From the NCBI GenBank assembly GCA_012516125.1, contig JAAYXB010000001.1, forward strand, positions 1 to 46,187: a stretch of DNA of 46,187 nucleotides, given 5' to 3'. Positions within the stretch are counted from its first letter, which is position 1, and every line of letters starts with the position of its first letter. The notes under the pieces are model-generated. The model saw nothing but the letters and a program-made list of their open reading frames with translations. It was not told the origin of the DNA and ran no database searches. Below, in pieces: positions 20,359-42,466 of this stretch. Both the position numbers and the translations under genes were made by a program. Origin of the DNA: Bacillota bacterium (GTDB taxonomy: Bacteria; Bacillota; SHA-98; UBA4971).

Positions 20359-20738
20359 GACCGCTGGCCACAGAACTGGCCACGGAGTCTCTGGGAGAGA
20401 CCATCCTGCAGCGGCGACTGCCACACAGGCCGCGTGCCACTGCCGGTGCCGGTGTCGAGAGCTACACCGACATCGGCGACCGGCACCGGCGGCTTTGCCG
20501 CGCGTTGGGGTCTAGCAACAGTAAGGCAGCAAGGCATTTGGCCCTCGCTGACCGTCGGCGGCAGATGGGTGTTCGGGCAGGAGGCTGTCTGGAGTTGATC
20601 CCGTCTCGTGGACACTCCAGGGTCACACGACGGAGACGGCCAATACCCGACATAGCGTGGCTACCGCGTGATCGGCCTTCTCACGCTCTGCAAACCAAAA
20701 CGCCTCTATCGGGTCCATCGGGTCCGACCGGTCTCCTT
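20359..20738. other. Intergenic stretch with long inverted repeat
   Basis: No gene is seen. A perfect 11-bp inverted repeat, CCGGTGCCGGT (20443-20453) with ACCGGCACCGG (20479-20489), separated by 25 bases, may mark the end of the exporter operon, though no T-run follows. A short direct repeat, CTGGCCAC, occurs twice near 20365-20385. Confidence 0.45.
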
Positions 20739-22509: not shown

Positions 22510-24396
22510 CTACCTCCACGCCAACCCCACAAACGCTGAGTTCCTCGCGAGCCTCGTAGCGCGGGTAGTAATCCCCATTTTCTCCCTCAGTCTTCGCTCC
22601 AACGAGTTCGCCGCATGCTCTCCTGATCGCGAGGACTTGGTCTCAAGGCCGTAGAATGTCATTGCCCCGGTGCGCGCGTTGACCTTCACGATGCCCCCAT
22701 CAAACTCCATCAACCTTTCGCCATCCCGAGTCAACCGGACAGAGGCAGTCAACACGAGGAAGCGAGAAACGCTACGTTCGTATCGACTGCTCTTCTGCAT
22801 CTCGCGGTTCAGCCTGTTTCGCAGTCTGACCAGACCCTCGAGCTCTGCCTGGAGGCTGCGCAAGCCAGGTTCCGAAGGCTTGCTCTTCCGTCGAACGATA
22901 TGTTTGATAAACGCAGTATCCAGGGTTGCACTGGAAGCCCATATTCTGGTCTGGTCGACAGAATCGTTTCCCGGAAACAGGCCAAGCCTCGAAAGTGGCC
23001 ACGCCGACAACTCAAGCCTTACATCTTGGTACAACAACGGGACCGCTTGGGCTAGGAGTGTGGCGTATATGCCATCGACGTCTTGCCTGCACAACAAACC
23101 GTATACGTCATCACTGGATTTCTCCCTGTAATCGAGTCTCTGCATAACCCACGCGATAAAGCGCCCAATCAATGCGATGGTCCCATTGCCGCGGGAGTAC
23201 AGATCGACAGTGAATTCGTCTGGTTCGATTCGTGCCTCGTGAAACCACAGCTGGTACGACAGTATACTGGCGCAGCCATCGTCTCTCATGACCCTCCGTC
23301 TCAATTCGGACTCAAGTCTAGCAAGTGGTCCGTCTATCGATACGAAATGGCTCCTTGTGGTTATGGACACAGCTCGGTTCAAGCAGTCTTCCTGCTCAAG
23401 GCGCAAAAGATCAAAGACCGTACCTATGTCGCTTTCCACCAACCAGCTGCGCAGGAGTTCGCCAGGCTGCTTTGCCTCGGCCAGCCTCTGATGCACAAGA
23501 GACGCAGTTATGGCCACGATCTTCCTACACTCGGGTCGGTGATAAAGATGCCAGTAGACCACGTGTTCGTACGACGATAGTACCTCGATGATCCGCTCTA
23601 GGTCACCAATAGCAAGTCCGTCGCTGTCACTCGCCAATCGCGTGATAACGACCCGAACCGGCGCGTCACAATAACTAGTGTCCAGGTTGAGATATGACAG
23701 CCTGCGGACTAGTTCATATAGGCGATGGATCTTCTCCCATCGAGGCAAGTTGCCGGCAGCGTCGGGAAGAAGCAGCCACCTGTAGAAGTCTTCGAGCACG
23801 TACTTGAGATGTTCAGGCGACTCATCTAGGACGGCCCACTGAGCTGCCTTTAGCAGACCCAGTACGCGGTTGACCCTTGCGTAATCCGCCGACCAGAGGT
23901 AGTCCGTAACGAATTCACCAAGTCTATCAAGCACGCTGTAAGAGGGTCCCGTCATGTCCAAAAGGCGTCGAAGCTCCCCTAGGGGTCTCTCTCGGTTTAC
24001 ATCCCACAGGTACCTTGCGACTCCCTTCTCGACAGCGAATGTGCCAGGAAGATGGCCTATATTCGACAGAAGAGCGGCACACTGGACAGCTGCAATGGCA
24101 GAAGAGAACTCTGCGCGTCCGATCTTGAACTGGGAGTTACCGCCGGGAACCTCGATGCGCGAAGCAACGTACAGCATTGACACTGTGAAGTCCCATCGAC
24201 TGTGGCTGATCCCCGGCAGAGCGCTCTCTAGCACGCCCACATGCCTGAGTTGCTTCAGGCGGCTCACTTCGCCTTTGGCTTGTAGTAGAGCAAAAAGGTC
24301 ATCAGCCGGGGGGTACAGGGGGAACCGAACTAGCCCGATATTGGGAACAGTGTGCTTGAGCGTCAGCATCCCCTCACCGTCCTTCGGCAGACTCAC
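22510..24396 (-). CDS. Unrecognised 628-residue protein with broken HD-like region and C-terminal PD-(D/E)XK-like motif
   Basis: I do not recognise this family. Residues ~60-125 resemble the HD fold of dNTP hydrolases: ISHSRWDFTVSMLYVA, then AALLSNIGHLPGTFAVE where active relatives have HDIGH-PF-H. The metal-binding His-Asp is Ser111-Asn112 and the last His is Phe120, so HD catalysis is unlikely. Near the C-terminus MEFDGGIVKVNARTG and FYGLETKSS give a D566...E585-x-K587 pattern, as in PD-(D/E)XK nucleases. The middle is helical and featureless. It is the last gene of the DISARM-like operon, 93 bp after the helicase gene. The start (GTG 24396 or ATG 24369) is uncertain. It occupies the place where DISARM systems often have the phospholipase-D protein DrmC. 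Confidence 0.75.
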   Translation of the reverse strand: MSLPKDGEGMLTLKHTVPNIGLVRFPLYPPADDLFALLQAKGEVSRLKQLRHVGVLESALPGISHSRWDFTVSMLYVASRIEVPGGNSQFKIGRAEFSSAIAAVQCAALLSNIGHLPGTFAVEKGVARYLWDVNRERPLGELRRLLDMTGPSYSVLDRLGEFVTDYLWSADYARVNRVLGLLKAAQWAVLDESPEHLKYVLEDFYRWLLLPDAAGNLPRWEKIHRLYELVRRLSYLNLDTSYCDAPVRVVITRLASDSDGLAIGDLERIIEVLSSYEHVVYWHLYHRPECRKIVAITASLVHQRLAEAKQPGELLRSWLVESDIGTVFDLLRLEQEDCLNRAVSITTRSHFVSIDGPLARLESELRRRVMRDDGCASILSYQLWFHEARIEPDEFTVDLYSRGNGTIALIGRFIAWVMQRLDYREKSSDDVYGLLCRQDVDGIYATLLAQAVPLLYQDVRLELSAWPLSRLGLFPGNDSVDQTRIWASSATLDTAFIKHIVRRKSKPSEPGLRSLQAELEGLVRLRNRLNREMQKSSRYERSVSRFLVLTASVRLTRDGERLMEFDGGIVKVNARTGAMTFYGLETKSSRSGEHAANSLERRLREKMGITTRATRLARNSAFVGLAWR

Positions 24397-24489
24397 TCCA
24401 CACTACTCGAAATCCCGCACAGAGTCGTCCGGCTTATAGCCGCAGACCACTTGGTCGGGTGCCGTGCCGATTCTTCTTGCACGTCGCCG

Positions 24490-27400
24490 TTACGCGAACC
24501 AGCTCTGATCGCTCCGAATCACGCGGGCAGATTCCTTACCCAGCAGGATTCTGGCAAGCCGGTAGAAGTGCCTCGCCATTGCTTCACGGTCGTCGAGGTC
24601 GGTGGCGGGTATCTCAAGTACTTCATAGCCCCGGGCGCGCAGCTCATCGCGGATCGCCCGGTCCCTCGCCGCTGTCTCAGGGTTGCCGTGAATGTGCTCA
24701 CTCAGGCCATCGAGATAGACGCACACCCCCAACTCGTACTCATCTTCCCCGGGGAAGAAGCAGTCCGGGACTGTGGAGCCAAGCGGCCGCCCAAGCTTGA
24801 TCTCGTATTGCCACTTGGGCTCGGGGAAACCTGCGCGCTCCAACAGACGGCGGAGGCGGGTCTCAGCCTCGTTGACGGGCATCGTTCTCCCCTTTGGCGT
24901 CTCAGCCGGAAGACGCGCCGGGATCTCGTGGAGGAAGGTTAGCGAACTCCCCAAAGTCCTCAACCGCTCATAGGCGACGTGGCGGTTGAGATGTCCGTGG
25001 TAGAACGCGTTTCGGAACGTTTGGAGGCAGTCTATGCACGACCGCCCACAGCCCGACGGGCATTTCTCCACCACCTCTGTGGCCGCCTGCGCCACCTCGG
25101 GCCAGCGCTCGCACGCCTGCTCGAGGAGGCCTGAGCCACCGGGCATCGGGTCATACAGTATCGCGTCGACGTCGTCCTGACCAGGGCGCCCCACTACGAG
25201 CACCTCGAGGTCATCCCTTTCCATCTCCAGCACCCGGCTCATCCCCACGCGGAGAGCCTCCAGCACTGAGTAAGCCTCCTCCCGCGTGGCAACAGCAGGC
25301 AGGCACATGGCGTCAGCCACCACATCAGCGAAGAACCCCACGTTTTCCACTTCTTCGCCGTAACGCTCCCTGTGTGCTCGCAGGAATTCCTCGAGCTCAC
25401 GAGCGGACGCCAGGGGAGACCGGCTCTGGCCTGTGACCAGGCTCACGGGATAACCCAGTCTCCCTGATGAGTGTACCAGCGGTGCGGCACCCACGTTCAC
25501 GAGTCTCAGGTGAACCCCGCGCCGTAAGGTCAGGTCACGCCCGCCCCATGAGAAACGCTTTCCCGGCCCATGCCTACCGGTTTCGTGACCGTAGATAACG
25601 ACCGGAAGCTGGAAACGATACTCCTCCTCATCGCTGATATGGGACCTGTGGACGAGCTCAACGTCACACACAGGGACGGCTTTGAGAGCAGCGCTGCCAA
25701 GGGCCGCAACAGCACCAGGCGCCGCTGTGCCAACCTCCGTCACCGACTCGCGCGCTGTGTCTACCTGGAAGAGGATTGGCTGCACAGGCTCAAGATGTAG
25801 GTACCGTGCCACAAACCTGTGGCCGTTCGCGTATATGAGGTTGCCGGGCACATATTCGCGAAGTGCGACCGCGGGCGGGCGCGGAAGGTCGAAGTCCCTT
25901 CCCCCCTCTGCATATCTGGGCACAATCGCCGTGCCTATGATGGAACCCGTCTCGAGCCCGTACCCTGGCAGGAATCCTTCCGAAGCAAGCACGGCGTAGG
26001 TGTTCGTGTCGTCGTATCCCTCGGCCTCGTGGCGCCGGCGTGGCACAATCCCCTTGTACCTCTTCACTAGCCGGTCGCAGCGTTGGTAGAGAGCGTCCTC
26101 TTCGGGATCGAGCGTGCCCTTGAGTCGGCGCATGCTGTCCAGATGAGCCATCTGGCTGCGCGCCCAGTCCAGGCGCTTCTTTAGGGTGCGGATGACCTCC
26201 TCAAGGCAGTCAGCCATGGCAAGGACCCTGCTACGTAGCGCTAGCTCCTCAACCACAGCAGCGTCCTCCTCAGGCCAGCTCCGCCCGAATGCAGCCCTTA
26301 CGTATTCGAGGAGGACCGCTTCGTGCTTCCTTATCACGTCCCGAAGAGGGCCAACATCAAATGGCTCGCTCCGGACGTGCCCGACCTCATCGAAGAGATA
26401 ATCCCGCACTCGCGCCGGGAAAGCCACTTGTAACGCACGTGCGACTTCCGCTCGGTCGTCCTCGCTAAGAGGGCTACTGCTCCGGGCGAGCTGGTGGAGC
26501 TTAGTGAGGACGGCTGCGTGGACGTGTTTTGCCACCATGAGCTCGTTGCGCATGTTGAAGCGTGGCGGCTCAACCCGGCCCTCGAGCAGCTTGAGCGGGT
26601 CTGCGAAGTACGCCCGATCATGATCAACCGCACGCGCGTACGTGATGTTGACTGCAAGCCGATGCCTCCGGCCCGCACGGCCTGCACGCTGCCAGTAATT
26701 CGCCGGAAGAGGCGGGACGTTGCGCATGAGGACGGTATCCAGCGAGCCTATATCGATCCCGAGTTCCAGGGTAGGTGTGCACACCAGCGTGTTGACTGTC
26801 TCACCGTCGCCCTTAAAGAGACGTTCCAGACGCTCCCGCTCGTCCGCGGGCACCTGGGCCGAATGCTCTGCTGGCCGCACCATCGCAAATCCCTGATCGA
26901 TCGCAGCAAGGTCATAGTTGTCAGGATCCGGCGGCTCAAACACGAGCGTTCCGTCGCAGCGCCAGGCAAGGCAGCGCTTGCCCGGAGTCGGACGCACCTG
27001 AGTACGGCGGCACTTCCGGCATCTCCACACTCCATTGTGCGGCGAGATCCTGAGGAGGTCGGCATCGATCTGGCGTACACCAGCGCAGTGTCTCAAGGCA
27101 TTCCCTCTGGCATCGGTCAGAGTCACCGGTACTAAGATCTGCAGCTCCTTGGTCAGCAGGTCCCATAATCCCCTCACGAAGTCCTCTACGTGGTCATTGG
27201 GCACACCCCAGGCCCGCGCCGCTTGTTTGACGATGGTATCCCCGACCGGGCTGAGCCACTGCGCTACGCGCCCGCGGTCGTCATCAGCCTCCCTGAAGAG
27301 CTTTATGCCCCTCGGGACTCCCTGCAGAAGGGGCAAGTACCCCTGTTGGATCTCGCGGTCGCCATCCATCCAGAAACGTGAGAAGATCTGACCGTCACGG

Positions 27401-29895
27401 TCCAGGAGATACATCTGACGGCGGTAGTTATCGAGAAGAGCATTAATGCCTTCCACGAGCTCCGCAGGCTCTATACCCAGCCTGCTCGCCCATTCCCTAA
27501 TGAAAGCGAGCTCAGGTGTAAGGCCATGGTATTCTATCTTGATCCGGCCCCAGGGCTCAAGGCCGACTCTCTGCCTGACACCAGTCGCGACCTCCCTCAA
27601 TACCGCGATACGCAGGAAGTACCTGCGTTCTTGGGCGTGTCGGACTCCCTCGGCTTCCTTCCTGGCCACCTGCCATACCTCTGGAATAAGGCTTCTGGAC
27701 AGCTCATCGTCGTCATTGAGCTTCTCGTCCAGATGGGCTGTAAGGTCGCCTACTGATATGGGACCCTCTGCGATCTTCTCTGCCATTAGACTGCGCAGCC
27801 GGAAACGACGCGCGTGATCTTTCATCCAGCCGGCTTGGAAAGCTGCCTCCTGGCGATTGTCGGCGAAGACCAGCAGGCGGCGCCGATCAGCGTGATGGAT
27901 CATGTTCTGGGCCAGGACGTGCACGTCGGATACGCTCACCGCGCGCACCGGGCGCGCCGGCTCTCTATAGCCTCCCGGCCTGTCGCGGCCTGGCGTCCTG
28001 CAGGCAAGGCAGGACACCAGATAGCCCCGATGCCTTTCGTCCTGTTCTACGGCAAACAATGGCACGAGCTCCCCTTCGCGCCCGCACGCGTCGCAACGGT
28101 CAAGGGCCTCGGGATGAAGCGCCCCGCAGTAGCGACACATGAAGACCTTGTGTGTGCGTGGCACCTCACCGTCCTCTTCGTCTGAGAGCGCGAGACGGTC
28201 CAGGAGCACCACCCGCGTGCCTTCCTGCTCGGGTCCAAGCGCAGGCCAGACTCTGCGGCTATCCACCGCGTCTCCACCTCCCAGCCCGTTCGGGGCTATG
28301 ACGAGGTCCTTCACGTGGTGGACGAAGTAGTGCTGGCCGCAGGTGTTGCAGGTCATGACCGGCAGGCGGAAGAGGCTGTCCTCCCCTTGAGTGGCGAGCT
28401 CGTCTTCGGCGGAAAGCCACAGCCGTGGGCCGGGCTCCCCCTCCGGAAACGTGACCACCGCACCGCCCACGCCGCGAACAAAGGCATGGATTACCGGCCT
28501 CAACAGCGGCCGGCCTTCCTTGCTGGACGCAGCGCCGAGAGCAAGCCAGGCAAGCACCTCCTCTTCAGGCACAGCCCGTCCCACGCGATCCTGGAGTTCT
28601 GTTACAAGATCCGTGAGCGCTCTCGGGCGAGACAGAGCCTCGCTGATCTGGTAGCATAGTTCGTTCTGGGCAAGGAGGGTGTAGAGGTCCTCCTGCCAGT
28701 GCGCCGCGTCGATCCTTGCTCCCGTCATTGCTTGGACCAGTGTACGCACCATGCGACCGGCATCGTCGCCAGCATCTATCGCATCAATGATGTTCTTGAG
28801 CTGGACGGACGGATCCCCGGGCAGCGGGGAGGGCAGATGCCTCACGGCCGCCCATTCATCCGGCTCATACTCTTCCCCCACGAGGGACACGTCCTCGCTC
28901 GAAACGCCGAAGAACCGCGCCGCGAACGCCTTTGCACCCTCGCAACCGTGGACAGGGTCCGCCAAGGTTGCTGATGTGGCAACGTGGGCCACTTCACCGA
29001 CACTCTTGCCGCAAAACGCACGGAGCCGCCGGACGAGGCACGCCGTCTCCGCGCCTGCCGCACCCCCGTACGTGTGTGCTTCATCAAACACCAGAAACTC
29101 AAAACGCGCGCCATCGAACAGCTCCACATCAGCGTGACGGGTCAGAAGCAGCTCTAGTTGCTTAACGTTGGTGAGCAGAATGCGCGGCTGCATCCCGGGC
29201 GTGCGCATTTCCTCGCGGGAGGCGCGCTCCTCGGGCGGGCGCACCGGGACGTTTCGGCGCTCCTCCCTCACCTGAGCAAGCTTTGCGAGGTAAGCTTCCC
29301 GGGAGGAACCAGGAGGAAGGCGCTCCCCCGACACGTCGGCTGCGCGTTCTGGGGTCTTGCCCACATACATCCCGAAGGGGATCCCCGTGCCTGCCAGTAT
29401 CCCGCGCAAGCGCCCCAGCTGATCCTCAGCAAGAGCGTTCATCGGATATACAATGACGGCGACGATCCCGGGGGCGGCCCCTTCGTCTCGAAGTTCAAGA
29501 CACCGGCTGATGATGGGATAGAGGAAACACTCCGTCTTGCCCGACCCGGTGCCAGTGGAGATGAGCGTCGTCTTCCCGGCACGAATGGATCTGATAGCCT
29601 TCTCCTGATGCCCGTAGAGGCGTTTGTACGGGATGAGGTTCGCCATGAACGGATGAAGAAAGCCTTCGGAGACGAGACTTGACACGCTTGCCCCCATGCG
29701 GAAGGAGCGCGATAGGCTGACGTAGGGGCCCTTGAGAAGAGGCGTCTGTCTCGTTCTCTCTAGTGAGAGCAGCTCCCGTAGCTGGCGGTGGAGAAGCGGA
29801 TCGGCAAACGCATAGGTGGTCAACTGGTAGCGAAGGAAATCCCCCACGACCTTCTCGGTGAAGCTGACAGGGTTGATAGCCACCTCATAACTCAC
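24490..29895 (-). CDS. Giant DEAD-box helicase with DUF1998 region and C-terminal Vsr/DUF559-like nuclease domain (DrmA+DrmB-like)
   Basis: This 1801-residue superfamily-2 helicase has Walker A TGTGSGKT (114-121), DEAH (271-274), SAT (308-310), and helicase C motifs TLELGIDIGS and YWQRAGRAGRR near 1070. Zinc-ribbon pairs lie between the helicase parts (MTCNTCG, CRYCG..CDACG, CRKC). The DUF1998-type cysteine cluster CPSGCGRSCIDCLQTF is near 1612-1627. The last ~130 residues read VPDCFFPGEDEYELGV, VYLDGLSEHIHG and RDELRARGYEVLEIPATD, like DUF559/Vsr endonucleases. In DISARM the helicase DrmA and DUF1998 protein DrmB are separate; here one chain holds both plus a nuclease-like tail. The start is GTG at 29895, 17 bp after the methylase stop. 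Confidence 0.88.
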   Translation of the reverse strand: MSYEVAINPVSFTEKVVGDFLRYQLTTYAFADPLLHRQLRELLSLERTRQTPLLKGPYVSLSRSFRMGASVSSLVSEGFLHPFMANLIPYKRLYGHQEKAIRSIRAGKTTLISTGTGSGKTECFLYPIISRCLELRDEGAAPGIVAVIVYPMNALAEDQLGRLRGILAGTGIPFGMYVGKTPERAADVSGERLPPGSSREAYLAKLAQVREERRNVPVRPPEERASREEMRTPGMQPRILLTNVKQLELLLTRHADVELFDGARFEFLVFDEAHTYGGAAGAETACLVRRLRAFCGKSVGEVAHVATSATLADPVHGCEGAKAFAARFFGVSSEDVSLVGEEYEPDEWAAVRHLPSPLPGDPSVQLKNIIDAIDAGDDAGRMVRTLVQAMTGARIDAAHWQEDLYTLLAQNELCYQISEALSRPRALTDLVTELQDRVGRAVPEEEVLAWLALGAASSKEGRPLLRPVIHAFVRGVGGAVVTFPEGEPGPRLWLSAEDELATQGEDSLFRLPVMTCNTCGQHYFVHHVKDLVIAPNGLGGGDAVDSRRVWPALGPEQEGTRVVLLDRLALSDEEDGEVPRTHKVFMCRYCGALHPEALDRCDACGREGELVPLFAVEQDERHRGYLVSCLACRTPGRDRPGGYREPARPVRAVSVSDVHVLAQNMIHHADRRRLLVFADNRQEAAFQAGWMKDHARRFRLRSLMAEKIAEGPISVGDLTAHLDEKLNDDDELSRSLIPEVWQVARKEAEGVRHAQERRYFLRIAVLREVATGVRQRVGLEPWGRIKIEYHGLTPELAFIREWASRLGIEPAELVEGINALLDNYRRQMYLLDRDGQIFSRFWMDGDREIQQGYLPLLQGVPRGIKLFREADDDRGRVAQWLSPVGDTIVKQAARAWGVPNDHVEDFVRGLWDLLTKELQILVPVTLTDARGNALRHCAGVRQIDADLLRISPHNGVWRCRKCRRTQVRPTPGKRCLAWRCDGTLVFEPPDPDNYDLAAIDQGFAMVRPAEHSAQVPADERERLERLFKGDGETVNTLVCTPTLELGIDIGSLDTVLMRNVPPLPANYWQRAGRAGRRHRLAVNITYARAVDHDRAYFADPLKLLEGRVEPPRFNMRNELMVAKHVHAAVLTKLHQLARSSSPLSEDDRAEVARALQVAFPARVRDYLFDEVGHVRSEPFDVGPLRDVIRKHEAVLLEYVRAAFGRSWPEEDAAVVEELALRSRVLAMADCLEEVIRTLKKRLDWARSQMAHLDSMRRLKGTLDPEEDALYQRCDRLVKRYKGIVPRRRHEAEGYDDTNTYAVLASEGFLPGYGLETGSIIGTAIVPRYAEGGRDFDLPRPPAVALREYVPGNLIYANGHRFVARYLHLEPVQPILFQVDTARESVTEVGTAAPGAVAALGSAALKAVPVCDVELVHRSHISDEEEYRFQLPVVIYGHETGRHGPGKRFSWGGRDLTLRRGVHLRLVNVGAAPLVHSSGRLGYPVSLVTGQSRSPLASARELEEFLRAHRERYGEEVENVGFFADVVADAMCLPAVATREEAYSVLEALRVGMSRVLEMERDDLEVLVVGRPGQDDVDAILYDPMPGGSGLLEQACERWPEVAQAATEVVEKCPSGCGRSCIDCLQTFRNAFYHGHLNRHVAYERLRTLGSSLTFLHEIPARLPAETPKGRTMPVNEAETRLRRLLERAGFPEPKWQYEIKLGRPLGSTVPDCFFPGEDEYELGVCVYLDGLSEHIHGNPETAARDRAIRDELRARGYEVLEIPATDLDDREAMARHFYRLARILLGKESARVIRSDQSWFA

Positions 29896-29912
29896 CAGCC
29901 TGTCTCGGTTTT

Positions 29913-32900
29913 CTAGCGGCGCGTTCGTCTTTTCTTCGGCCGAATGCTGGCCGAGTTCTCACCAAACAGGTTCTTCTGACCCGAGGGAAACAACGTAAGC
30001 TGGGTGCGCCCCACGACTGTGCCTGCTCCGTAGGGAGGATGCGACTCAGCAGCAAGTGCTGGCCACTCTGCCTCCCCAGAGACTTCGGAGGCTTCGGAGC
30101 GGGCTTCCTCCGTGGGAGTTGCTGAGAGTCCGTCGGCCTTATGGCCTCGCGCGGCATCAAGCTCTTCCATCAGCTTCTTGTAGCCTTCCTCTCCCAGGAG
30201 GTTGCGGGCGTGCAGCCGGCACTCCTTCCAGGACTCTTCTGGAGAGGCCTCCAACTGCCAAGGCAGGAACCGCTCCCCCAGACGCTCGCGAACGGGCTGC
30301 GCCCGCTTCGCCCGTTCATCGTGTCCAAGGCCGAGATCAGCGAGCCTCAGCGTCTCGGGGAGCATCCAACCCTCGCCGCCGTTCATGCTGCAGAATACCT
30401 CGATGCCTTTATCCCTCTCGCCTTCAGAGGCGATAATCTCCTTCAAGTCCCTAAACGCCGCCAAGGTCAGCATCGTGTGTCTTAACTCAGGATCCTTGTC
30501 CTTGTCCACGCGCCAAAAGCCCTTCGGGTCAAGCATTCGTGTGAAGGTCTTGTCTTGGAGCCTCTCGGCAGGATAATCGCACTCACGCAGTATCCAGGCC
30601 AAGTTGTCCCAATCAAGCCCATAGAGCTCCGCCACTATAGCGTCGAGGATGCAGCGAAGGCGAAGGCGCTCGTGAGGCGTAAGGGCCCACCTTCTGTGCC
30701 AGTGACCAGACGGACGCGCTGCCCCGGAGAGTGCCTCGGTGCCAATAAGGCGTATCCATGAGTCCGCAAAGACCTTAGATACTAACGCAAGAGGCGCACT
30801 GCAATTAGCGATGAGGGGTGCCATTCTGAATAGGTCAGCACGAACAGCTATCTCTTCAAGAACTGCCCAAATGAGAGAATTGCCTCCCAAACGAAATCGG
30901 ACCAGATAGTCAAATGAAAACGAATTGGCAATACCAACGAGAGTTGTCACGGCCCCCACCGAAAGGGGTGTGGGAGTCAACGTCGGCGACTTGTGGCCGC
31001 ATGGAAAACCACTAGCAACAGCTGAGATCACCGTTCGAGTATTCGTGGTGGAAGTTACGTCCATCAATACCGCCTTTAGAGGTTTGCCGGGACACTGTTC
31101 CAAATACATATCGCGAGCCATCAGGAACTGTGGCTCTATGACCTTCGCCTCCCACGGGATCTCCCGCCACACCGCGCTGCGGCCTTTCCCCCGGACCCAG
31201 CCCTTCTGGCTGAAGTCAAACTGCCCGATCATCCGGCCCTCATAGAGCGGCAGTGCGACATCCTCGATTTCGTCTTCGTGGATCCACGCGGTCCCGTCCA
31301 CGGAAAGGATGACGCCGGGCTCCATCTCCCACCGTGGTCCGGCCGGGCGGCCTTCGTGCCAGCCGCCTTTGAGCCAGCGGCCATATTCGTCGGGCCGGTA
31401 CCCCTGAGCCTCCCACCACGGGCGCGGGGGGAACAACTGCGAATCGTTCGTCATATCGAACTCGCGGGCATACTTGATCTGCCACCCCCCGGGCCCCTCA
31501 TCGCCGAGAAGAACAGAGTTTGCATAGATCTTCTCAAGGATCTCCAGGTCGCGTCTGTTGCGGATCTCGAGTATGGCCCGGCTGCCAGGGCTGAAGCGTT
31601 CCACCTGTGCCCGCGCGTAAGGAACGGCGTACCGCTCGCCCTCCTCCCAGTCGGCGAGGTTCCTGCGCATGAAGGCGGTCTGGATGGATTCTGTCTCTCC
31701 GCCTTTCTGCACAATGATCGGGCAGAACTTGAAACGGCTATCAATGTCAAAGACCTTGTCCCTGTTCTCGAACCCGAACAGCCACTCCCATCGACAACGG
31801 GTAAGAAAGAGCTTCCTGAGGTCAGACGCACCCTTGTCCGAGTACACCCCGGAAGGCACCACAAGGCCCATCCGCCCTCCGTCGCGGAGAAGAGCATGTG
31901 CTTGCTCCAGGAACATCTTGTACGTATTGATGTCCGCTGAACCTTGATGTCTGAACGCGTGCTCTGGGTCAGCATAGCCCGTTCGCGCAGCGCGTCGCGC
32001 CCGCCATTCGTCGAGCAAGCGGCTGTCGCTTCTGCCGAGGCCAAGAGTGGCGCTTCCTTCCTCGCCATCGCCAAAGGGGAAGCCTGCGTTCTTTACCCAG
32101 TTCGAGAGAGCTTTGAGCCTGGCACAATACACCAACCAATCTTGCTCATCGTCAGCGCTGCGCTGGAAGTACTCTGACTGCTTGTCGAGGGCCTCCTGCT
32201 TGCCGTAGGTCCGATAGAGCGGATCGATGTTCGAGAAGAACTCCTTGGAATTCGGCTTCTGAATCTCCCATGGTGGATTCCCGACCACGGCATCGAACCC
32301 GCTGCCAGGCCGGACGAAGACATCGGGGAACTCGAGTTCCCAGTGAAAGAACCGGTATTCGCTGGCAAGCCGCCTCGCGAGGTCGCGTGTTGCCCTTGGG
32401 GGGTCCGTGAAGTTCAGCGGCGTCGGGGCGTCCTCCAGGCGGTCCGCTGGCCAGAACCAGATGGCGCACCAGACGTCGAAAGCCTCCTTGAGACGCTGGA
32501 ACGCGGAGTTACCCAGGATCCTGTCACGGTAGAAGGCCGCGCGCTCCTCTGACTCGTGCACCGCGAAATCGTGCATTCTCTCCAAGAGAGCCGTCGCCTC
32601 GTCGTGCACCGCCTCAGGAGCCACCTTGAACTCCGGAAGCGGAAGCACCAGCTGGTAGCCGCGGCTCTCAAGCCATGTCTTGAGCTCCCCCTTTATGCGT
32701 TCGTTGCGGAACTTCTTGATGGCTTTCGTCCAGGCCTCCTTCTCAAAATGGACACCACGCGTATGGTTGCTGTCGCCGCCTTCCCGCTCCCAAGCAAGGA
32801 CGGGGTAATCCCGGAATCGGTCGAACCAGCAACCCACAAGGGAGTTGCCCACCTTCACCTTATGGTCAAGGAAGCTGAATGGGAGTGCAGGGTCCATTGT

Positions 32901-35252
32901 CTCGATCCACAAGGCTACTCGCGCAAGCTCCACGGCGAGCGGGTCTATGTCCACTCCATAAATGCAGCGTTCCACCACATATCGCTTGAGACGTGCCCGC
33001 AGCTGCGCTTCGAAGCCGTCTGAATCAGGGCGGCACGGTAGGAGCTCCTCCGAAAGGCGTCCGGACTCAGGCCGCCCTTCGGCCAGCGTCACAACGGCTT
33101 CCTCACCGTGGCTGCGGATGCGTCCGTGATAGTGAAGGCTTTCCACCAGCGCATCTGTGAGGAATCTGAGCGTGGCTATGAGAAACGACCCTGATCCGCA
33201 CGCCGGGTCGCACACCTTGAGGGCAAGGATTTCTTCAGGTCTTCTCGGAATCCATCGGGAAGCCGAAGCGTTCCCGTTCTCGCCAGCGGGTCCTCCTGGG
33301 CCAATCAAGGCCTCGTACGCAAGGGGCCGTAGGGTTCGGTGGACAGTTGGGACCGCGAGCTGTGGGCGGGTGTAGAAGGTCCCCGCACCCTTGCGGGTAC
33401 CTCCCCATCGGACCAGATACCATTCGCCCGGCAGTACCACACGCGCCACAAGACGTCTCGCGGCCCGCGCGCAAAGCGCCTCATACTCGCGAAGCGCGGC
33501 CGGGCTCAAGGACCGCGGCTTGTGGACGAGCCTGCCTGCCTTCACCGCCCGCAGCGCCCATCTCCACGCCCGCTCAGTAGCGGCACGCCGGGCATCATCG
33601 CCCGCGCCACCACCCGGCAAGGCCCCGGGCGTCTCCTCGATGTCGGCAGGCTCTCCGCTCTCCTCCGAGTCGTCGCCCTCGGGTCCGGCATCCTCGTCAT
33701 CGGGTGCGCTCTCGTCGGTATCTTCGCCTCCCGCCTCCTCGTCCCCGGTGCCCCCCTCGCTCTCCTCGCTCACGATGCGCCTGGTTCTTTCCTTGGACTT
33801 CTCAACCAGCCTAGCTATGGCCTTGTCATCTAGAGCCTCAAGACGAGAGAGAGGCAGCGCCGGTTGGTCGCCGAGGTTCAGGAAGATGATTGGGTCGCCG
33901 TGGGAGGCGCGGCGCAGCTCAAAGTCGAGAAGCCCCTCGTAGAGCATTCCTACGTATTCGGACGAGAGATCCGAGAAGTCCACGGGAGCATCTATCCACA
34001 TAGAGTTCCTGCCCTGGCGGATCTTGACGCGGCTGTGACAGAGAAGGGTGAGCATCTCCTGGACCGCTGCGTCGCTCGGCGAGTTCTCTGGGTCTTCGAA
34101 AACGCTCAAGGCTCTGCGGATAGGATCGTCGGAGCCTGGATCGCCCGGCTCGAACAGATTACCTGCATAACGCGGGACAGGCAACGCCTCGTGAGGAGAT
34201 CCCTCGTAAACGAGCCTGAAGAGAGCGAGAATCCTCGGCCACGCGTTGAACTGATGGCGCAGCCTGTCAGAACCTGCGCCTCCTCCGGAGCGGTCGAGCA
34301 TTTCACGCAGGCCGCCAAGCCCATATGAGCCGTGATAGATGGGATTGTCCCGGGGCAGGAGGTCTCTAGCCTCAGCGAAGAGCGCGACGACCATGCGCAT
34401 GACCACACGAGTGGCCGCGTGGTAGATGTCGGCAGGCTTTACGCCCAAGTTTGCGTCTTCAAGAGCATGTGAATGCTCGCGGATGAGGACTTCTACAGCC
34501 TGCCGGACACGCTCGCCCAGCGCAGTTGAAAGTTCCGCCTGACCTTTACGAGAAGCGGCGATGGCAGCCAGAAGCGCGGAAGGCTGCCCATCCGCACTCG
34601 GTACGAGCGCATCCCGACCCAGGAGCGCCCTGAGAGCGGTGACCTGAAGCCCCGTTCTGCCTTCCCCGAACCATAGGGCCGTATCCCATTCGGCGAAGGC
34701 ATCGTGGTCAAGCCCGGCATAGACTAGGCGCCATTGCCGCCCGTTTGTGAGGAGCGCGATTCTCTGGCCCTTATGCCGGAGCCATTCGATCACCCTGGAA
34801 GTCGTGCGCCGGCCTCGCCCGGTCCCGAGTCGAGCCGCCCTTTCCGACTCCACAAATACAGGGAGAAGCGCCCCGCGCGGCCCCTTCCAAAGGCGACGAG
34901 GCTTGATAACCTCCCCTGTCATCCCCTGGCTCGACCATTCAGACGGGACGTCCCCGCCTTTGAACCAGCGCCCTTTCGTGGCCGCGCCGGACGCGTCGTT
35001 CTCCAAACCGAGCACTTCCTCAAGCACGGTGTCGAGAAGGCTCGCCAGAGACTCAGCACGACCGTCCGATGCGCGCATTATGTCGCGACGGAGGCGGTCC
35101 TCCAGGTGGCGCGGCAACGGCGCGAGGTCCGGGGGGAAGTTCTGGGCTAGGTGCGAGGGCGCTATGAGCAGCCCTCCGTGCTTAAGCGATGCCCACCACG
35201 CATAGCTTTCGTCAGCAGTCTGTCTCAAGGCCGCAGCCTCGCTCGCCGCCAT
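29913..35252 (-). CDS. Giant N6-adenine DNA methyltransferase (Eco57I/DrmMI-like)
   Basis: This protein of about 1779 residues would mark host DNA in a DISARM-like system. The SAM-binding motif I DPACGSGSF is near residue 682 and catalytic NPPW near 992 (VVGNPPWEIQK), the order of gamma-class adenine methylases. The ~480-residue N-terminal part resembles that of Eco57I and PglX-like enzymes (IEWLRHKGQRIALLTNGRQW). An acidic linker rich in Asp, Glu and Gly (bases ~33600-33790) precedes the methylase core. The C-terminal ~600 residues probably include target recognition (MGLVVPSGVYSDKGASDL). I choose ATG 35252 because GGGAGG is eight bases upstream and overlaps the end of the SNF2 gene; a GTG at 35261 is too close to it. 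Confidence 0.9.
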   Translation of the reverse strand: MAASEAAALRQTADESYAWWASLKHGGLLIAPSHLAQNFPPDLAPLPRHLEDRLRRDIMRASDGRAESLASLLDTVLEEVLGLENDASGAATKGRWFKGGDVPSEWSSQGMTGEVIKPRRLWKGPRGALLPVFVESERAARLGTGRGRRTTSRVIEWLRHKGQRIALLTNGRQWRLVYAGLDHDAFAEWDTALWFGEGRTGLQVTALRALLGRDALVPSADGQPSALLAAIAASRKGQAELSTALGERVRQAVEVLIREHSHALEDANLGVKPADIYHAATRVVMRMVVALFAEARDLLPRDNPIYHGSYGLGGLREMLDRSGGGAGSDRLRHQFNAWPRILALFRLVYEGSPHEALPVPRYAGNLFEPGDPGSDDPIRRALSVFEDPENSPSDAAVQEMLTLLCHSRVKIRQGRNSMWIDAPVDFSDLSSEYVGMLYEGLLDFELRRASHGDPIIFLNLGDQPALPLSRLEALDDKAIARLVEKSKERTRRIVSEESEGGTGDEEAGGEDTDESAPDDEDAGPEGDDSEESGEPADIEETPGALPGGGAGDDARRAATERAWRWALRAVKAGRLVHKPRSLSPAALREYEALCARAARRLVARVVLPGEWYLVRWGGTRKGAGTFYTRPQLAVPTVHRTLRPLAYEALIGPGGPAGENGNASASRWIPRRPEEILALKVCDPACGSGSFLIATLRFLTDALVESLHYHGRIRSHGEEAVVTLAEGRPESGRLSEELLPCRPDSDGFEAQLRARLKRYVVERCIYGVDIDPLAVELARVALWIETMDPALPFSFLDHKVKVGNSLVGCWFDRFRDYPVLAWEREGGDSNHTRGVHFEKEAWTKAIKKFRNERIKGELKTWLESRGYQLVLPLPEFKVAPEAVHDEATALLERMHDFAVHESEERAAFYRDRILGNSAFQRLKEAFDVWCAIWFWPADRLEDAPTPLNFTDPPRATRDLARRLASEYRFFHWELEFPDVFVRPGSGFDAVVGNPPWEIQKPNSKEFFSNIDPLYRTYGKQEALDKQSEYFQRSADDEQDWLVYCARLKALSNWVKNAGFPFGDGEEGSATLGLGRSDSRLLDEWRARRAARTGYADPEHAFRHQGSADINTYKMFLEQAHALLRDGGRMGLVVPSGVYSDKGASDLRKLFLTRCRWEWLFGFENRDKVFDIDSRFKFCPIIVQKGGETESIQTAFMRRNLADWEEGERYAVPYARAQVERFSPGSRAILEIRNRRDLEILEKIYANSVLLGDEGPGGWQIKYAREFDMTNDSQLFPPRPWWEAQGYRPDEYGRWLKGGWHEGRPAGPRWEMEPGVILSVDGTAWIHEDEIEDVALPLYEGRMIGQFDFSQKGWVRGKGRSAVWREIPWEAKVIEPQFLMARDMYLEQCPGKPLKAVLMDVTSTTNTRTVISAVASGFPCGHKSPTLTPTPLSVGAVTTLVGIANSFSFDYLVRFRLGGNSLIWAVLEEIAVRADLFRMAPLIANCSAPLALVSKVFADSWIRLIGTEALSGAARPSGHWHRRWALTPHERLRLRCILDAIVAELYGLDWDNLAWILRECDYPAERLQDKTFTRMLDPKGFWRVDKDKDPELRHTMLTLAAFRDLKEIIASEGERDKGIEVFCSMNGGEGWMLPETLRLADLGLGHDERAKRAQPVRERLGERFLPWQLEASPEESWKECRLHARNLLGEEGYKKLMEELDAARGHKADGLSATPTEEARSEASEVSGEAEWPALAAESHPPYGAGTVVGRTQLTLFPSGQKNLFGENSASIRPKKRRTRR

Positions 35253-35257
35253 GGCCA

Positions 35258-38200
35258 TCACCTCCCATCGTCAGGCAGCCTTATCTCAACAGCAACTGGG
35301 AAAACCGATGCCCTCCCGCGCAGCGTGTATCTCTTGGGAATTGTGTACTTGAGCACTCTTTCGCGTTCGCGCTGTAGCTGCTGGCGAAGCTCCTCATAGT
35401 GCGCGCGGCGTCGCCGGATCTCTTCCTCCTTCTCGGCGATGGAGCGGTCTATTTCCTCGAGCCGGCGGTCCTGATCGTACAACACTCCTTGATTGCGCTC
35501 GCGCTTGAGTTGTTCGATCTCTTTCTCTAGCCGAGCTATGGTCGTGCCCTCGATGAGAGCAGAGATCTCGCCTTGCCTGCTCAAGAAGCGATCGTTCTCG
35601 GTGCGCAGGGCGGACACTCGCTCGGCATCCAACGTGCTTGCGAGGCGCTCAGTTAGCTTGCTCGCAAGGTCCCTCACCAAAGCCTGGACATCCGATGCGA
35701 TCTCGTCCCAGACCTGCCTCGCTCTGTCAACGTCCTCCGGCGCGGGCGGGCCGCACGCTATCCGGAGGTCTTTAGCTGGCACGTGGGGAAGAGGCTCACC
35801 AATGCTCCCCCCGCAAACGGGTATCCGCAGCGTCCGAACCCAGTGATGAAACGTCTCCCGTAACTCGTTTACGGCAAGTTCCTCCACGGTCAGGAGCACG
35901 AGGGCGTCCGCGCCCGCCGGCACCGGGCCACGCTTCACAGTCCAGCGGGTAGCTCTCCCTGCGGCCCCCGGGAAGCGGGCCTGGGCAAGGGTAGTGAGCG
36001 CCCGGCTCACGAGCGGGTGACCGAGATGAAGCAGCACCGAGTCTTTCTCGGGCCTAAAGACGGGACGACCCTCCACTTCACGGACCAGCTTGGACGCATC
36101 GAAGAAAATCGCGGGAAGCGCCCCCTTGGGTGAATCACGTAAGCCGGACCGGCCACGATCCAACCGCAAGGAATCATCAACAAGAGCGTTCCACTCGGCC
36201 GGGATCGGAGCTTTCAGGCGGAAGCGCCCACGCTCGTCGGGACCGTCAAGTCGTGGTCGGCCCGCCCTGAGGCCGAGAGCTACATCGAGGGTCTCGCGCA
36301 GGCTATCGGCGTCAAGATCCACCTCGTTCGCGAGCTGACGCAGGTATGCGAGGCCGTTAGCGCCCGACTCCACCTCGTCGCCGGCGCCCGGCAATTCCGC
36401 CCGCCCCTTTGCAAAAGCGAGTTGTCCATCCAGCTCTGTACGCACTTGGTCTGCGTCATCCCCGGCGATGAGCCTCCGCTCAATGGCAGAATCGAATACC
36501 TGCCCTGTTGAGCCCAGGTCTTCACGGATTGTATGGACCTTCCGGATGACATAGGCCAGGAACGCTAGGTCAGCATCGTCATCGGTGGCGAAGTGGTACA
36601 CGACCACGTCCCGGGCCTGTCCGTGCCTGTCAAGGCGTCCGTTTCGCTGTTCGAGGCGGGCAGGATTCCAGGGTACGTCATAATGGAGTATGTACCGCGC
36701 CGTCTCCTGGAGGTTCAGACCTTCCGCAGCGGCGTCAGTTGCAATAAGGACCCTCACGGGGTCAGCAGGATCGTTGAAGGCCGCCTTGATGAGCTCGCGC
36801 TCGCCCTCGTCCATCCCACCCAAAAGCACTCTCACGGATCCTTCCTCGGGATACACAGCCTTCAGCCTACGCGCAATATACTCAAGGGTGGTCTTGTACT
36901 CCGTGAAGACCACCAGGCGCTCGTCTGGATGGCCCCGCAGCGCGTTCGCGATTAGGCCGCAGAGTGCATCGAAGCGGGCATCGCTGCGAGGCGTCATCTC
37001 GGCCGCTCGATCGCCCGCTGGGCTGTCCGTGACGTCAAGCCCCAAGTCCCGGAGGGCACGATCGATCGCTTTGATCTCGGGCTCAAGACGTTCAGCAAAG
37101 GGCTTCAGCCAGGCGCCGACCGTACGCGCAGCATGCGCCCCGCGCGCTTCTGCCTCCATGTCGTCGCCTGTCTCCTCACGCACCGATCGTCTTGCCGCCT
37201 GCACCTCGTCGACATCGGCGGGCTGCGCGTCTGCCAGCCCTTCACAGTAACGATGCCACGAGTCGGCAAATGCCACCGGACATGATAGGAGGCGCTTCCC
37301 CAGGACCTCAACGGCAAACGATCCCGCTACCTGTTCAGCCCTGCGGGCCGAGGCCACGAGCGACCTCACCTTGAGTCGAAAAGCTGCGAAGGCTTGCGAC
37401 AAAGTTTGCTCTTCACGGCTAAGGGAAAGCGGCAGCGCGACCAGCTTTCGCTCGCAGAACTTCGGCGGGCTCGTCCTCGCGTTTATCTCGCTCTTTAAGC
37501 GTCGGACCACGACTTGCGATACGCGGCGCTTGTCCGCTTCTGTTAGTGGCTCACCCTTCTCGGTGAATCGAGCGGGATCGAGGCACTCGAGGAGGCCCGT
37601 AAAGCTTCGCGTATGCCCGTTGTGCGGCGTTGCTGTGAGAAATAGCTTGTGTTCAAAGTAGGGAGCGAGCACCCTCAGCATTCGCGTAAGGTCACTCTCC
37701 TCCCCAAGCGGGGCGGGCGCGAGATTGTGTGCCTCATCAACGATCAGGAGGTCCCAAGGTAGATGAGGTGAGCCCTCTGGTACGCGGCACGCCGACCGGA
37801 ACTGCTCGAGGACGTCTGGCTGTTTGAGATAGTCATATGAGCTGATGATTCGCGGGAAGGTGCGCCAGGGATTGGCGTCCATGCCCAAGCGCTTCTGAAG
37901 CGCGTGGGTGGAGGCACGGTCGACAACGTCGAACGGCAGCGCGAACTTGTCTTGCATCTCTTGCTTCCACTGGAGACGCAGTGAGGCAGGACACAGCACG
38001 AGGACCCGCCGCACCCGGCGCCGGGTGAGCAGTTCCCGCAGGATCAGCCCGGCCTCGATCGTTTTGCCGAGGCCCACGTCATCCGCCAGGAGCAACGCCA
38101 CTCGCGGCATGCGCAGGGCCTTGAGCAGGGGGACAAGCTGGAAATCCTCAATCTGCACGGCGCTGTGAAAAGGCGCAGTGAGAGGGCACGGTGCCGGGGA

Positions 38201-38722
38201 CTCTTTGGAGCTGGACGACTCGAGGCCAGGGTTGGAACCGTCGAGGCCGTCGAGGCTGATGTAGGGAGAAAGTGCGGTCCACCGTGCGGCTCGGACGAGA
38301 GCGTCCAACTCATCCGGCGCCATAGCGGCGTCGCGTTCGACGTCCGGCAGCGCCGTGGGCTCGAGCAGACGCGCTCCAGGCTCGCGCTCCCAGATGAGCT
38401 GGTCTTCCTGGGGGGAGCCCCCGTCCAGGTACTCCACGGTGACCAGGTGGAATCGCCCTTCGGTTAACCCATCGAAAGGCTCAACCGCCGAGACGAGACC
38501 CCGGCGATTTCGCACCGTGGCGAGCATGCCAATGCGAGGCGGCCCCGACGGAGACAGGGACACACCGCGCGGAGCCGCAGTGCACATTGTCGGCGCGGTC
38601 GGCACGGTTGGCACAGTCGGCGCATGCGAGTCCGCGGCATCGACGGACAGCCTCTCATTCACGCCATCGGGCGGCATCAACCCTGTGCACTGGTCAGGAT
38701 GGGCAGATGGAGAATCGGCCAA
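35258..38722 (-). CDS. SNF2-family helicase (DISARM DrmD-like)
   Basis: This ~1154-residue ATPase is the first gene of the defence operon. Walker A is ADDVGLGKTIEAGL (near 217-230, Asp where Glu is usual), then WDLLIVDEAHNLAP (DEAH near 332), LTATPHNGH, and in the C-terminal lobe VLIATDAAAEGLNLQ and QRNGRLDRHGQ. The protein ends with a coiled coil of ~70 residues (IARLEKEIEQLKRERNQG onward) before a short basic tail. The N-terminus has a Pro/Thr-rich near-repeat (PTVPTVPTAPT). The start is probably TTG 38722, seven bases after GAGGGG; an in-frame GTG three codons earlier overlaps that site. SNF2 + N6-methylase + DUF1998 helicase is the class 1 DISARM set. Confidence 0.9.
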   Translation of the reverse strand: MADSPSAHPDQCTGLMPPDGVNERLSVDAADSHAPTVPTVPTAPTMCTAAPRGVSLSPSGPPRIGMLATVRNRRGLVSAVEPFDGLTEGRFHLVTVEYLDGGSPQEDQLIWEREPGARLLEPTALPDVERDAAMAPDELDALVRAARWTALSPYISLDGLDGSNPGLESSSSKESPAPCPLTAPFHSAVQIEDFQLVPLLKALRMPRVALLLADDVGLGKTIEAGLILRELLTRRRVRRVLVLCPASLRLQWKQEMQDKFALPFDVVDRASTHALQKRLGMDANPWRTFPRIISSYDYLKQPDVLEQFRSACRVPEGSPHLPWDLLIVDEAHNLAPAPLGEESDLTRMLRVLAPYFEHKLFLTATPHNGHTRSFTGLLECLDPARFTEKGEPLTEADKRRVSQVVVRRLKSEINARTSPPKFCERKLVALPLSLSREEQTLSQAFAAFRLKVRSLVASARRAEQVAGSFAVEVLGKRLLSCPVAFADSWHRYCEGLADAQPADVDEVQAARRSVREETGDDMEAEARGAHAARTVGAWLKPFAERLEPEIKAIDRALRDLGLDVTDSPAGDRAAEMTPRSDARFDALCGLIANALRGHPDERLVVFTEYKTTLEYIARRLKAVYPEEGSVRVLLGGMDEGERELIKAAFNDPADPVRVLIATDAAAEGLNLQETARYILHYDVPWNPARLEQRNGRLDRHGQARDVVVYHFATDDDADLAFLAYVIRKVHTIREDLGSTGQVFDSAIERRLIAGDDADQVRTELDGQLAFAKGRAELPGAGDEVESGANGLAYLRQLANEVDLDADSLRETLDVALGLRAGRPRLDGPDERGRFRLKAPIPAEWNALVDDSLRLDRGRSGLRDSPKGALPAIFFDASKLVREVEGRPVFRPEKDSVLLHLGHPLVSRALTTLAQARFPGAAGRATRWTVKRGPVPAGADALVLLTVEELAVNELRETFHHWVRTLRIPVCGGSIGEPLPHVPAKDLRIACGPPAPEDVDRARQVWDEIASDVQALVRDLASKLTERLASTLDAERVSALRTENDRFLSRQGEISALIEGTTIARLEKEIEQLKRERNQGVLYDQDRRLEEIDRSIAEKEEEIRRRRAHYEELRQQLQRERERVLKYTIPKRYTLRGRASVFPVAVEIRLPDDGR

Positions 38723-39193
38723 AGTAGACACCCCTCGGCATGAGCCCGTGTGGCCTGAGACTCCCAGACTTGCCAGTAAGTATTAGACAAATGGCACTAG
38801 CTATCCTGCCCATCCTGCGTCGTTCTGCACGATTCGTCACCGACCATCATCGCATCCGCTCACCGTGGACATCGGACGCGAAACGTCCCCTGCTCGGGAT
38901 CCGTGTCCCTCTAGGCCTTTCGTCCTTCGTGTTCTGTTCACTCTTGCCATTGAGGTGATATGCTGACGTTAGCGGCTCCCCTTTTCTACCTCCAGCTTGT
39001 CACGCTTTGCCTGTTGACGGTTGCTCACCAGGACATACCTTGGTGCTCGCTTCGCCGTCTCCGGCCTCTTTCTACCGACACGTCCGCCTCACCACAACCG
39101 ACCTGGAAGCCGCTACCCCAAATTCCGGGCCCCTTGGCAGACGCTCGTCCACTGAGTCGACCGGCTGTTGGAGAGCGCATTGGCGTCCGCAGC
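38723..39193. other. Leader/intergenic region before the defence operon
   Basis: About 470 bp between the antitoxin stop and the SNF2 start. No gene is seen. The defence-operon promoter should lie here on the - strand; AATACTTACTGGCAAG-like AT-rich sequence occurs around 38775-38790, but I cannot fix -35 and -10 boxes. Confidence 0.4.
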
Positions 39194-40204
39194 CTACTCG
39201 ATAGCTTTCAGGGTCATGGCGTACTCATAAGATATCGGCTCACCGAGCTGCGTTTCTGTGTAACCCCTCTCCTTGTGGCTCATCTTTCCGAGCACAGTAG
39301 GGCTGCAACTCTTGAACTTCCGGAGGACGTCTTCGAGAACCTTCAGCTCCTGAGGGCTAAACAAATCGGCCTCGAACTCCGCAACAGGTTCGACCGTCTC
39401 TCCTTCGACCTCGCCGTAACTCTGCGGCTTGAGGGCAATGAACTGCATCCGCTCCATGTAGGCCATGACCAAGTCGTGGGCTAGCGGAACAGGCCCAAAG
39501 TAGTTATGGCAGTATACCGCGCCGCTCATGGAGCAAAGCGTCCGTCTATAGCAGAGGAAATCCGAATACCACAGCATCTTGAGCAACTTCGATTTCGCGA
39601 TGCCGGGGCACTTGGCCGCAAAGAAGACCGCCATTTCGGCGAGTCTGTCCAGATCAGGCCTACGCCTTCCCCGTAGCGACTCTCCATGCCGCGAGTACAG
39701 GCTTAGCAGGATCCGCGAGATCTTCTCTGGCACACTATCTGCCCGGCAGGAACCGAGTGCCTTCTCCACCCGCTTTCTCTCAAGGTTTCCCAGCTTAGAA
39801 GCAGATGCTTCAAAGAGACTGCGCGCGTAAGCCACATCCTTGCTGAATCGACAAAGCTGATCATTATGGGCGACGCTGGGGAGCGACCCAAGTTCGTATC
39901 TCGCTATCGTGGCAGGGCTCCATCCCAGAAGGGCAGCTAGACCCCGCTGTGAGAGACCGTATCTCTCCCTAATCTTCTTGATCTCTTCCGGTCCCAACAG
40001 ACCCTTTTGCTTACGATACTGAGAGTAAGCTAGAGACAGGTTTTCACCGTCTACAGCCTCATCGAATACATCAGTTCCACAAGTTCCGCACGTCAAAACG
40101 TTGGCCATGATGGTGATGGGCTCGCCCTTTACTGGATATGTCTCCTCCTTCCGGATCTTAACGAATTCCCTTTCCGTTTCGCACTTTGGACAGAAGCCCT
40201 TCAT
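39194..40204 (-). CDS. Antitoxin with YgiT-type zinc finger, HTH and Panacea/DUF4065 domains
   Basis: This 336-residue three-part protein is the predicted antitoxin of the small gene just upstream. Residues 1-45 hold a zinc finger (FCPKCETE and LTCGTCGTDVF). An Xre/MqsA-like helix-turn-helix follows near 75-110 (RERYGLSQRGLAALLGW, SPATIARYE). The last ~170 residues are a Panacea/SocA (DUF4065) domain (KLLKMLWYSDFL, then YFGPVPLAHDLV). The start is ATG 40204 with AAGGAGG seven bases upstream; an in-frame start seven codons earlier lies on the far side of that site. MqsA-type proteins bind the toxin and also repress their own promoter; Panacea is a known neutralising domain. The gap to the toxin gene is 62 bp. 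Confidence 0.82.
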   Translation of the reverse strand: MKGFCPKCETEREFVKIRKEETYPVKGEPITIMANVLTCGTCGTDVFDEAVDGENLSLAYSQYRKQKGLLGPEEIKKIRERYGLSQRGLAALLGWSPATIARYELGSLPSVAHNDQLCRFSKDVAYARSLFEASASKLGNLERKRVEKALGSCRADSVPEKISRILLSLYSRHGESLRGRRRPDLDRLAEMAVFFAAKCPGIAKSKLLKMLWYSDFLCYRRTLCSMSGAVYCHNYFGPVPLAHDLVMAYMERMQFIALKPQSYGEVEGETVEPVAEFEADLFSPQELKVLEDVLRKFKSCSPTVLGKMSHKERGYTETQLGEPISYEYAMTLKAIE

Positions 40205-40266
40205 GGTTTGTCCTCCTTCGTGCATGGTTCCTCGACTGGTCCGTTGACGCGAACTTCCCCATCGCT

Positions 40267-41668: not shown

Positions 41669-42466
41669 CTAAACACCCTTTAGGCCTGCGAGATGACTGA
41701 GAAACTCCTCTTGCTGCTGCGCTGTCAGCCTAAACTCACACTGCGTCGTCCCCGCCTCCAACAGCTCATCTACACTCTGAACGCTGTTCAGCCACGTAGA
41801 CACTACAAAGGCATCATATGGACCATACCCGACAAACCCGTGTAGCCGGCTCCAGTGGTCCCCGATCCTGTATGTCTGACACCGCCTATTCGCCAAGTCT
41901 GACACAAGTATAGTTCCTCCGTAATACTCGTCCTTATCGGGAATCTTCGAGATCAGGAGTTCGTAACGCGTGGAGCCGGCGTTAACTGTTATGAGCGTTC
42001 CGGGTGAATCTCCGACGGCTTTGATGAGCAAGTCTCCGTAGTACTTCCGCACCAACTCTCCGTAGTTACACAGCTTTTCACAGATGTCTTCCCAAGACCA
42101 AATGTCGCAAGGGTACGGGCCTTCTTCTGTCAGTACCCTCCCAATTCGTTGTGCCCGTGCATCCCGACGCGCTGTTGTGGCGATGAAGAACCGTGTTAAC
42201 CTTGGCTCGAACCTCGTCGAATCCCAGTACGCCTTTCTGATGTCGCGCTCACTGAGCGAGTCGGCGCATTTGCACTGCACTCCTTCGTACCCTCGCCGAT
42301 CGCAGGAACGTCCAAAGATGTCAACACCGTATTGCCTCTGTCCAGGTCGACCGTTCCGTTGTGGATGGGGGTCGCCCCATATCTTTCCGAAAAGGTCACA
42401 CATCATCCGTTCAAATTCGCGCCAATCACTCGGTGCAGGATAACGTAATTCAGTCAAGGTTGGCAA
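41669..42466 (-). CDS. Mrr/PD-(D/E)XK-like restriction endonuclease
   Basis: This protein of about 265 residues has a restriction-type nuclease core at its N-terminus: FERMMCDLFGKIWG, then GRPGQRQYGVDIFGR and YEGVQCKCADSL. The D...Q-x-K arrangement (about D49, Q64, K66) is the usual Mrr-like metal site. FIATTARRDARAQR follows, a strand-helix pair common in such enzymes. The C-terminal ~120 residues are not recognised. The start is probably TTG 42466, seven bases after AGAGGGGG; a GTG two codons earlier sits on that site. No methylase partner is beside it, so it may act on modified or phage DNA. Specificity is unknown. Confidence 0.72.
   Translation of the reverse strand: MPTLTELRYPAPSDWREFERMMCDLFGKIWGDPHPQRNGRPGQRQYGVDIFGRSCDRRGYEGVQCKCADSLSERDIRKAYWDSTRFEPRLTRFFIATTARRDARAQRIGRVLTEEGPYPCDIWSWEDICEKLCNYGELVRKYYGDLLIKAVGDSPGTLITVNAGSTRYELLISKIPDKDEYYGGTILVSDLANRRCQTYRIGDHWSRLHGFVGYGPYDAFVVSTWLNSVQSVDELLEAGTTQCEFRLTAQQQEEFLSHLAGLKGV

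Follow-up and report, generated by a model that had tools for sequence, protein, structure and literature searches.

Four large open reading frames (ORFs) lie head to tail on the minus strand of the window, by which we mean the whole stretch of 46,187 nucleotides of Bacillota DNA analysed here. We verified all four at the positions, with the sizes and in the order given in an earlier note on this DNA, and found intact catalytic motifs in genes A, B and C. Gene A (armA-like, drmD-like; positions 35258-38731) encodes a predicted helicase of the SNF2/RapA/BrxHII type of 1157 residues. Gene B (armB-like; 29913-35261) encodes a predicted PglX/DrmMI-like N6-adenine methyltransferase of 1782 residues, and gene C (armC-like; 24490-29895) a predicted YprA-family DEAD/DUF1998(MZB) helicase of 1801 residues. 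The fourth ORF (22510-24396) encodes a 628-residue protein which we regard as a neighbour outside the system. The reading frames of A and B share 4 bp; 17 bp lie between B and C, and 93 bp between C and the 628-residue gene. A sigma-70 consensus scan across the window gave no promoter match.

In A, the Walker A motif (residue 218) and the DEAH motif (332) are intact, and the protein scores 694 bits against the NCBIfam DISARM_DrmD model (cut-off 610) and 687 bits against PADLOC DrmD. In B, DPACGSG (685) and NPPW (995) are intact; Pfam reports Eco57I and N6_Mtase, and the best PADLOC model is REase_MTase_IIG (1509 bits), with DrmMI at 457 bits. By these profiles, A and B are shared with class 1 DISARM as DrmD-like and DrmMI-like genes.

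Upstream of A, also on the minus strand, lies R (39194-40225), a probable regulator of 343 residues with MqsA-type Zn/HTH and SocA (Panacea) domains (Pfam MqsA_antitoxin, HTH_3 and SocA_Panacea). A close relative of R (395 bits) is found near a Druantia-like helicase gene in another genome, G324. Further out, a 267-residue ORF (41669-42472) shows a sub-threshold match to an Mrr-type restriction endonuclease domain (E 0.0027), and the remaining flank ORFs scanned were regulatory, metabolic or matchless. The surroundings had been described as rich in defence genes, a description that the MqsA/SocA-like regulator and the Mrr-like ORF bear out weakly.

Gene C and its nuclease tail

C carries DEAD, Helicase_C and MZB domains by Pfam, with intact Walker A and DEAH motifs. 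As the earlier note had it, helicase and DUF1998 parts are joined in a single 1801-residue chain ending in a nuclease-like tail. That this chain is a fusion of DrmA and DrmB was not borne out: the top PADLOC models for C are DruE3 and DruE1, with 366 bits for DruE3 versus 46 bits for DrmA, and the DrmB family model matched nothing in the whole host genome while controls were positive. Helicase and DUF1998 module normally occur in one chain outside DISARM, so that what was taken for a fusion is the usual arrangement there. By its profile scores, C is a YprA helicase of the Druantia/ARMADA branch and not a DrmA-DrmB fusion. The host genome encodes further YprA-like helicases outside the clade of C, one full-length of about 1700 residues (contig C55) and another in two pieces (contig C19).

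The tail comprises about residues 1675-1801 (24493-24873). Its Zn-cluster cysteines and an E/D/D/H/D set are intact, and E1678, D1711, D1729, H1736 and D1745 are invariant in the alignment. Sequence searches of the tail against the PDB returned chance-level matches only, and its identity came from a fold search. When the C-terminal 421 residues of C were modelled from 21 clade homologues (mean pLDDT 77), fragment residues 295-406 matched the whole catalytic domain of the homing endonuclease I-Bth0305I (Z-score 11.7, 97 of 97 residues), a Vsr-like EDxHD nuclease. The same C-terminal model also matched the DUF1998 region of MrfA (Z 11.6) and DISARM DrmB (Z 9.1). The modelled tail is thus predicted to have a Vsr-type nuclease fold, consistent with the Vsr-type tail reported for ARMADA, a family related to DISARM and Druantia that was introduced in a 2025 preprint (Bell et al., PMC12458937). 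ARMADA systems consist of a BrxHII-like helicase, a methylase resembling PglX and a YprA helicase that ends in a Vsr-type tail; that the helicase is a single chain with a nuclease tail, and that a phospholipase D (PLD) DrmC is lacking, are published traits of the family (PMC12458937).

Recurrence of the cassette and its 628-residue neighbour

A scan of species genomes identified 76 C-encoding loci in phyla that include Acidobacteriota, Planctomycetota, Gemmatimonadota, Cyanobacteriota, Spirochaetota and Bacillota. B lies upstream of C within the fetched flank at 39 of these loci; at 20, the flank is too short to judge B or C is fragmentary, and at 17, B is absent from upstream sequence of at least 9 kb. 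B is also encoded in 13 of 16 further genomes where it had previously been unseen, and coordinate comparison (e.g. loci L108, L094, L074, L103 and L102) places it on the strand of C and about 10-20 kb upstream, assuming the same contigs. Together, the 39 loci and the 13 genomes indicate that B and C are usually linked. A mostly precedes B where the flank extends far enough, and in relatives, B and C may be as close as 3 bp or more than 10 kb apart. A plasmid of Synechocystis sp. B12 (L058:8057-25434) carries a full-length cassette in which A, B and C are each split into many short ORFs, indicating that this copy is decayed or was hit by sequencing errors.

The 628-residue gene had been proposed as a fourth member of the operon, standing in for DrmC, and as part of a recurring four-gene set. 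What recurs is the three-gene cassette: none of the 76 C loci encodes a relative of the 628-residue protein, and no other genome with C was found to carry one. In a sister species of the same genus (G088), an R-A-B-C block matches the window at 90-95% DNA identity as far as position 24496, the stop of C, and the genes beyond it, read by eye, are an IclR-type regulator and a transporter subunit, with no 628-residue gene. The window backbone at 14869-20420 is on a different contig in G088, and the surroundings of the cassette thus differ between the two genomes. In the sister species, R was transferred along with A-B-C.

Could the 628-residue protein nevertheless be a lineage-specific accessory subunit or ArmD replacement, confined to one species? 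Its gene is on the same strand, 93 bp behind C, and occupies the place taken by ArmD in ARMADA II and in five members of the C clade. Set against this are the sister-species cassette that lacks it and homologues that occur without A-B-C: one, 36% identical, beside a transposase-like ORF, a second with type I HsdM and HsdS genes and a phage integrase as neighbours, and a third carried by a Peribacillus plasmid, close to an AAA ATPase. We therefore consider a subunit role improbable.

The protein had been described as unrecognised, and single-protein scans of Pfam, NCBIfam and PADLOC indeed gave no match. Family members of about 620 residues are encoded at L055:577-2490, L056:9156-10985 and L059:13989-15854 besides the window. 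Relatives are rare: they were absent from the genome-contig and viral-contig collections and from the phages collection; the plasmids collection held one, in Peribacillus, and among 59 genomes of the class of one further genome, G117, only G117 itself had one. A 152-residue protein on a Priestia plasmid matches the C-terminal part of the family. A three-member profile searched against the PDB retrieved the HD phosphohydrolases 2q14 (7.9e-7) and 2o6i (2.6e-4). In place of the HD pair, the window protein and its two closest relatives have SN and the fourth member AN, which makes dNTPase activity unlikely; N112 is invariant. D566, E585 and K587 are invariant in the four homologues, with a spacing like that of a PD-(D/E)xK site. 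A single-sequence AlphaFold model was unusable (pLDDT 35), and the nuclease reading thus rests on sequence motifs only. On these motifs, the 628-residue protein looks like a separate candidate defence nuclease, apart from the cassette.

Assignment of the cassette to ARMADA

The locus had been proposed to follow class 1 DISARM logic, in a variant with DrmA and DrmB fused and DrmC replaced by the 628-residue gene. Part of this stands: a defence operon is present, A exceeds the curated DISARM_DrmD cut-off, B matches DrmMI models, and the order of A, B and helicase is that of class 1 DISARM. The hallmark genes are missing. Unlike class 1 DISARM, the window has no separate DrmA or DrmB and no PLD DrmC, and its helicase comes from another YprA branch. 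Among the Drm profiles, DrmD (A) and DrmMI (B) gave matches, DrmA gave C its low score, and neither DrmB nor DrmC gave any; the reported lack of DrmC was confirmed, no operon protein matching DrmC or PLD in PADLOC, Pfam or NCBIfam. With C far closer to DruE3 than to DrmA, the whole genome free of DrmB and the 628-residue gene not recurring with the cassette, the reading as a DISARM variant is largely refuted, and we give it very little credence.

Druantia is an equally slim prospect. Here C would be DruE and its neighbours accidental, as suggested by DruE3 and DruE1 being its best PADLOC models. The window shares the DruE-like YprA helicase with Druantia and differs from it in carrying A and B, in lacking the partner genes (Druantia partner models matched none of the five proteins scanned with PADLOC) and in the Vsr-type nuclease, with conserved active-site residues, predicted for the tail of C. 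Furthermore, A and B are repeatedly found with C in different phyla, C falls outside the Druantia-like rows of our tree (see below), and a known ArmC scores DruE3 first as well. This ArmC is encoded by an E. coli plasmid operon arranged A-B-C-D (ARMADA II) that served as positive control and matched the PADLOC models DrmD, type IIG, DruE3 and, for D, GajB: ArmA hit the DrmD model with 335 bits, ArmB was best matched by IIG (925 bits), and ArmC by DruE3 (348 bits). A stand-alone type IIG restriction-modification enzyme, with B placed by chance between two helicase genes, is the least credible explanation, since B's best PADLOC model, REase_MTase_IIG, evidently includes ArmB proteins, E. coli ArmB being itself best to IIG models, and the A-B-C linkage recurs.

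Such a mixture of DrmD, IIG/DrmMI and DruE matches is how ARMADA shows up in PADLOC and NCBIfam. A, B and C belong to this family, and their motifs are intact. The expectation of an undescribed system therefore fell away, the three-gene operon being of a kind published in 2025 (PMC12458937). No ArmD, a RelE-UvrD fusion, was detected behind C in the window, and E. coli ArmD searched against the host genome gave only 27-45% identical stretches within other UvrD-like helicases. In all, we consider it very probable that A-B-C (24490-38731) together with R constitutes an ARMADA system, in ArmA-ArmB-ArmC order without ArmD, and that the 628-residue gene is independent, horizontally acquired and no subunit of it.

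How such a system would work can be sketched from E. coli ARMADA II, where defence requires the full set of four genes, the Walker motifs in both ArmA and ArmC and the NPPW motif in ArmB, and where infected cells survive (PMC12458937). Anti-phage activity is reported for this E. coli system only, a distant relative of the window operon (PMC12458937). ArmB would methylate host DNA adenines as a self mark. ArmA, as a translocase, and ArmC, as a helicase with a DUF1998 canopy, would engage unmarked or replicating phage DNA, which the Vsr-type tail of ArmC would then cut, resulting in direct restriction without abortive infection. Both the self-marking and the order of steps are what we infer.

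A separate C clade and the space between B and C

We computed a tree of C using YprA-only proteins as outgroup, from which one row (L036_Y, branch length 8.6) was left out; references were assigned to ARMADA I or II from their gene order, as PMC12458937 describes it, not from the published tree. Support is 100/100 for the window C clade, 100/99 for ARMADA I and 100/100 for ARMADA II. The window clade is a weakly supported sister (89/90) to the Type I references, as labelled by gene order. In AU tests, grouping it instead with ARMADA II or with the Druantia-like rows gave p 0.064 each, so that the branching order is not settled.

Compared with Type I, the window operon has homologues of A, B and C, the Vsr-type tail on C and no ArmD. 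It differs in gene order, A-B-C versus the usual C-A-B (PMC12458937), although many archaea and cyanobacteria are reported to have Type I in A-B-C order (PMC12458937); in the sequence of C, which is about 23-30% identical to Type I references and falls in its own clade; and in that five members of this clade carry ArmD. With Type II (E. coli NCTC 12900 and relatives), the window shares the A-B-C order and the PADLOC profile of A, B and C. In Type II, ArmD is almost always next (PMC12458937), whereas the window has none and its C falls in a separate clade. Behind C, at clade loci with at least 3 kb downstream, an intact RelE-UvrD gene was present at 5 of 48, a remnant at 1 of 48 and neither at 42 of 48; the five ArmD-like proteins are 33-38% identical to E. 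coli ArmD.

The window has 17 bp and no cargo between B and C. In relatives, this space holds AbiEi/AbiEii, Drt3b, Drt1a, SNF2 proteins, pAgo, IetA, TRIP13 and others (for example at L066:8204-9998, L080:1402-5370 and L109:7760-9649). In hand-picked sets, and counting families rather than proteins, 109 B-C gap proteins matched 338 PADLOC families versus 118 matched by 105 proteins downstream of C, a defence enrichment that is only suggestive.

What may be new here is a separate C clade beside ARMADA I and II, mostly without ArmD and often with defence genes between B and C. The authors of PMC12458937 may themselves count this clade within Type I. A bolder proposal, possible but somewhat doubtful, is that it is a third ARMADA type: a C clade of many phyla with A-B-C order, an optional and usually absent ArmD, and a B-C space serving as insertion site for complete defence modules, while the 628-residue neighbour would act as a one-gene defence of a kind not yet described, combining a degenerate HD domain with a PD-(D/E)xK nuclease.

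What makes this locus interesting is its separate clade and the B-C insertion site. The annotation models applied here label the three genes separately as DrmD, a type IIG enzyme and DruE, and ARMADA is therefore likely under-reported or misread as DISARM, Druantia or restriction-modification. The 628-residue protein is a small, testable candidate on its own account, and the B-C gap of relatives is a place for finding new defence genes. Finally, the clade is a source of systems that naturally lack ArmD and could help to show what this toxin-helicase contributes.
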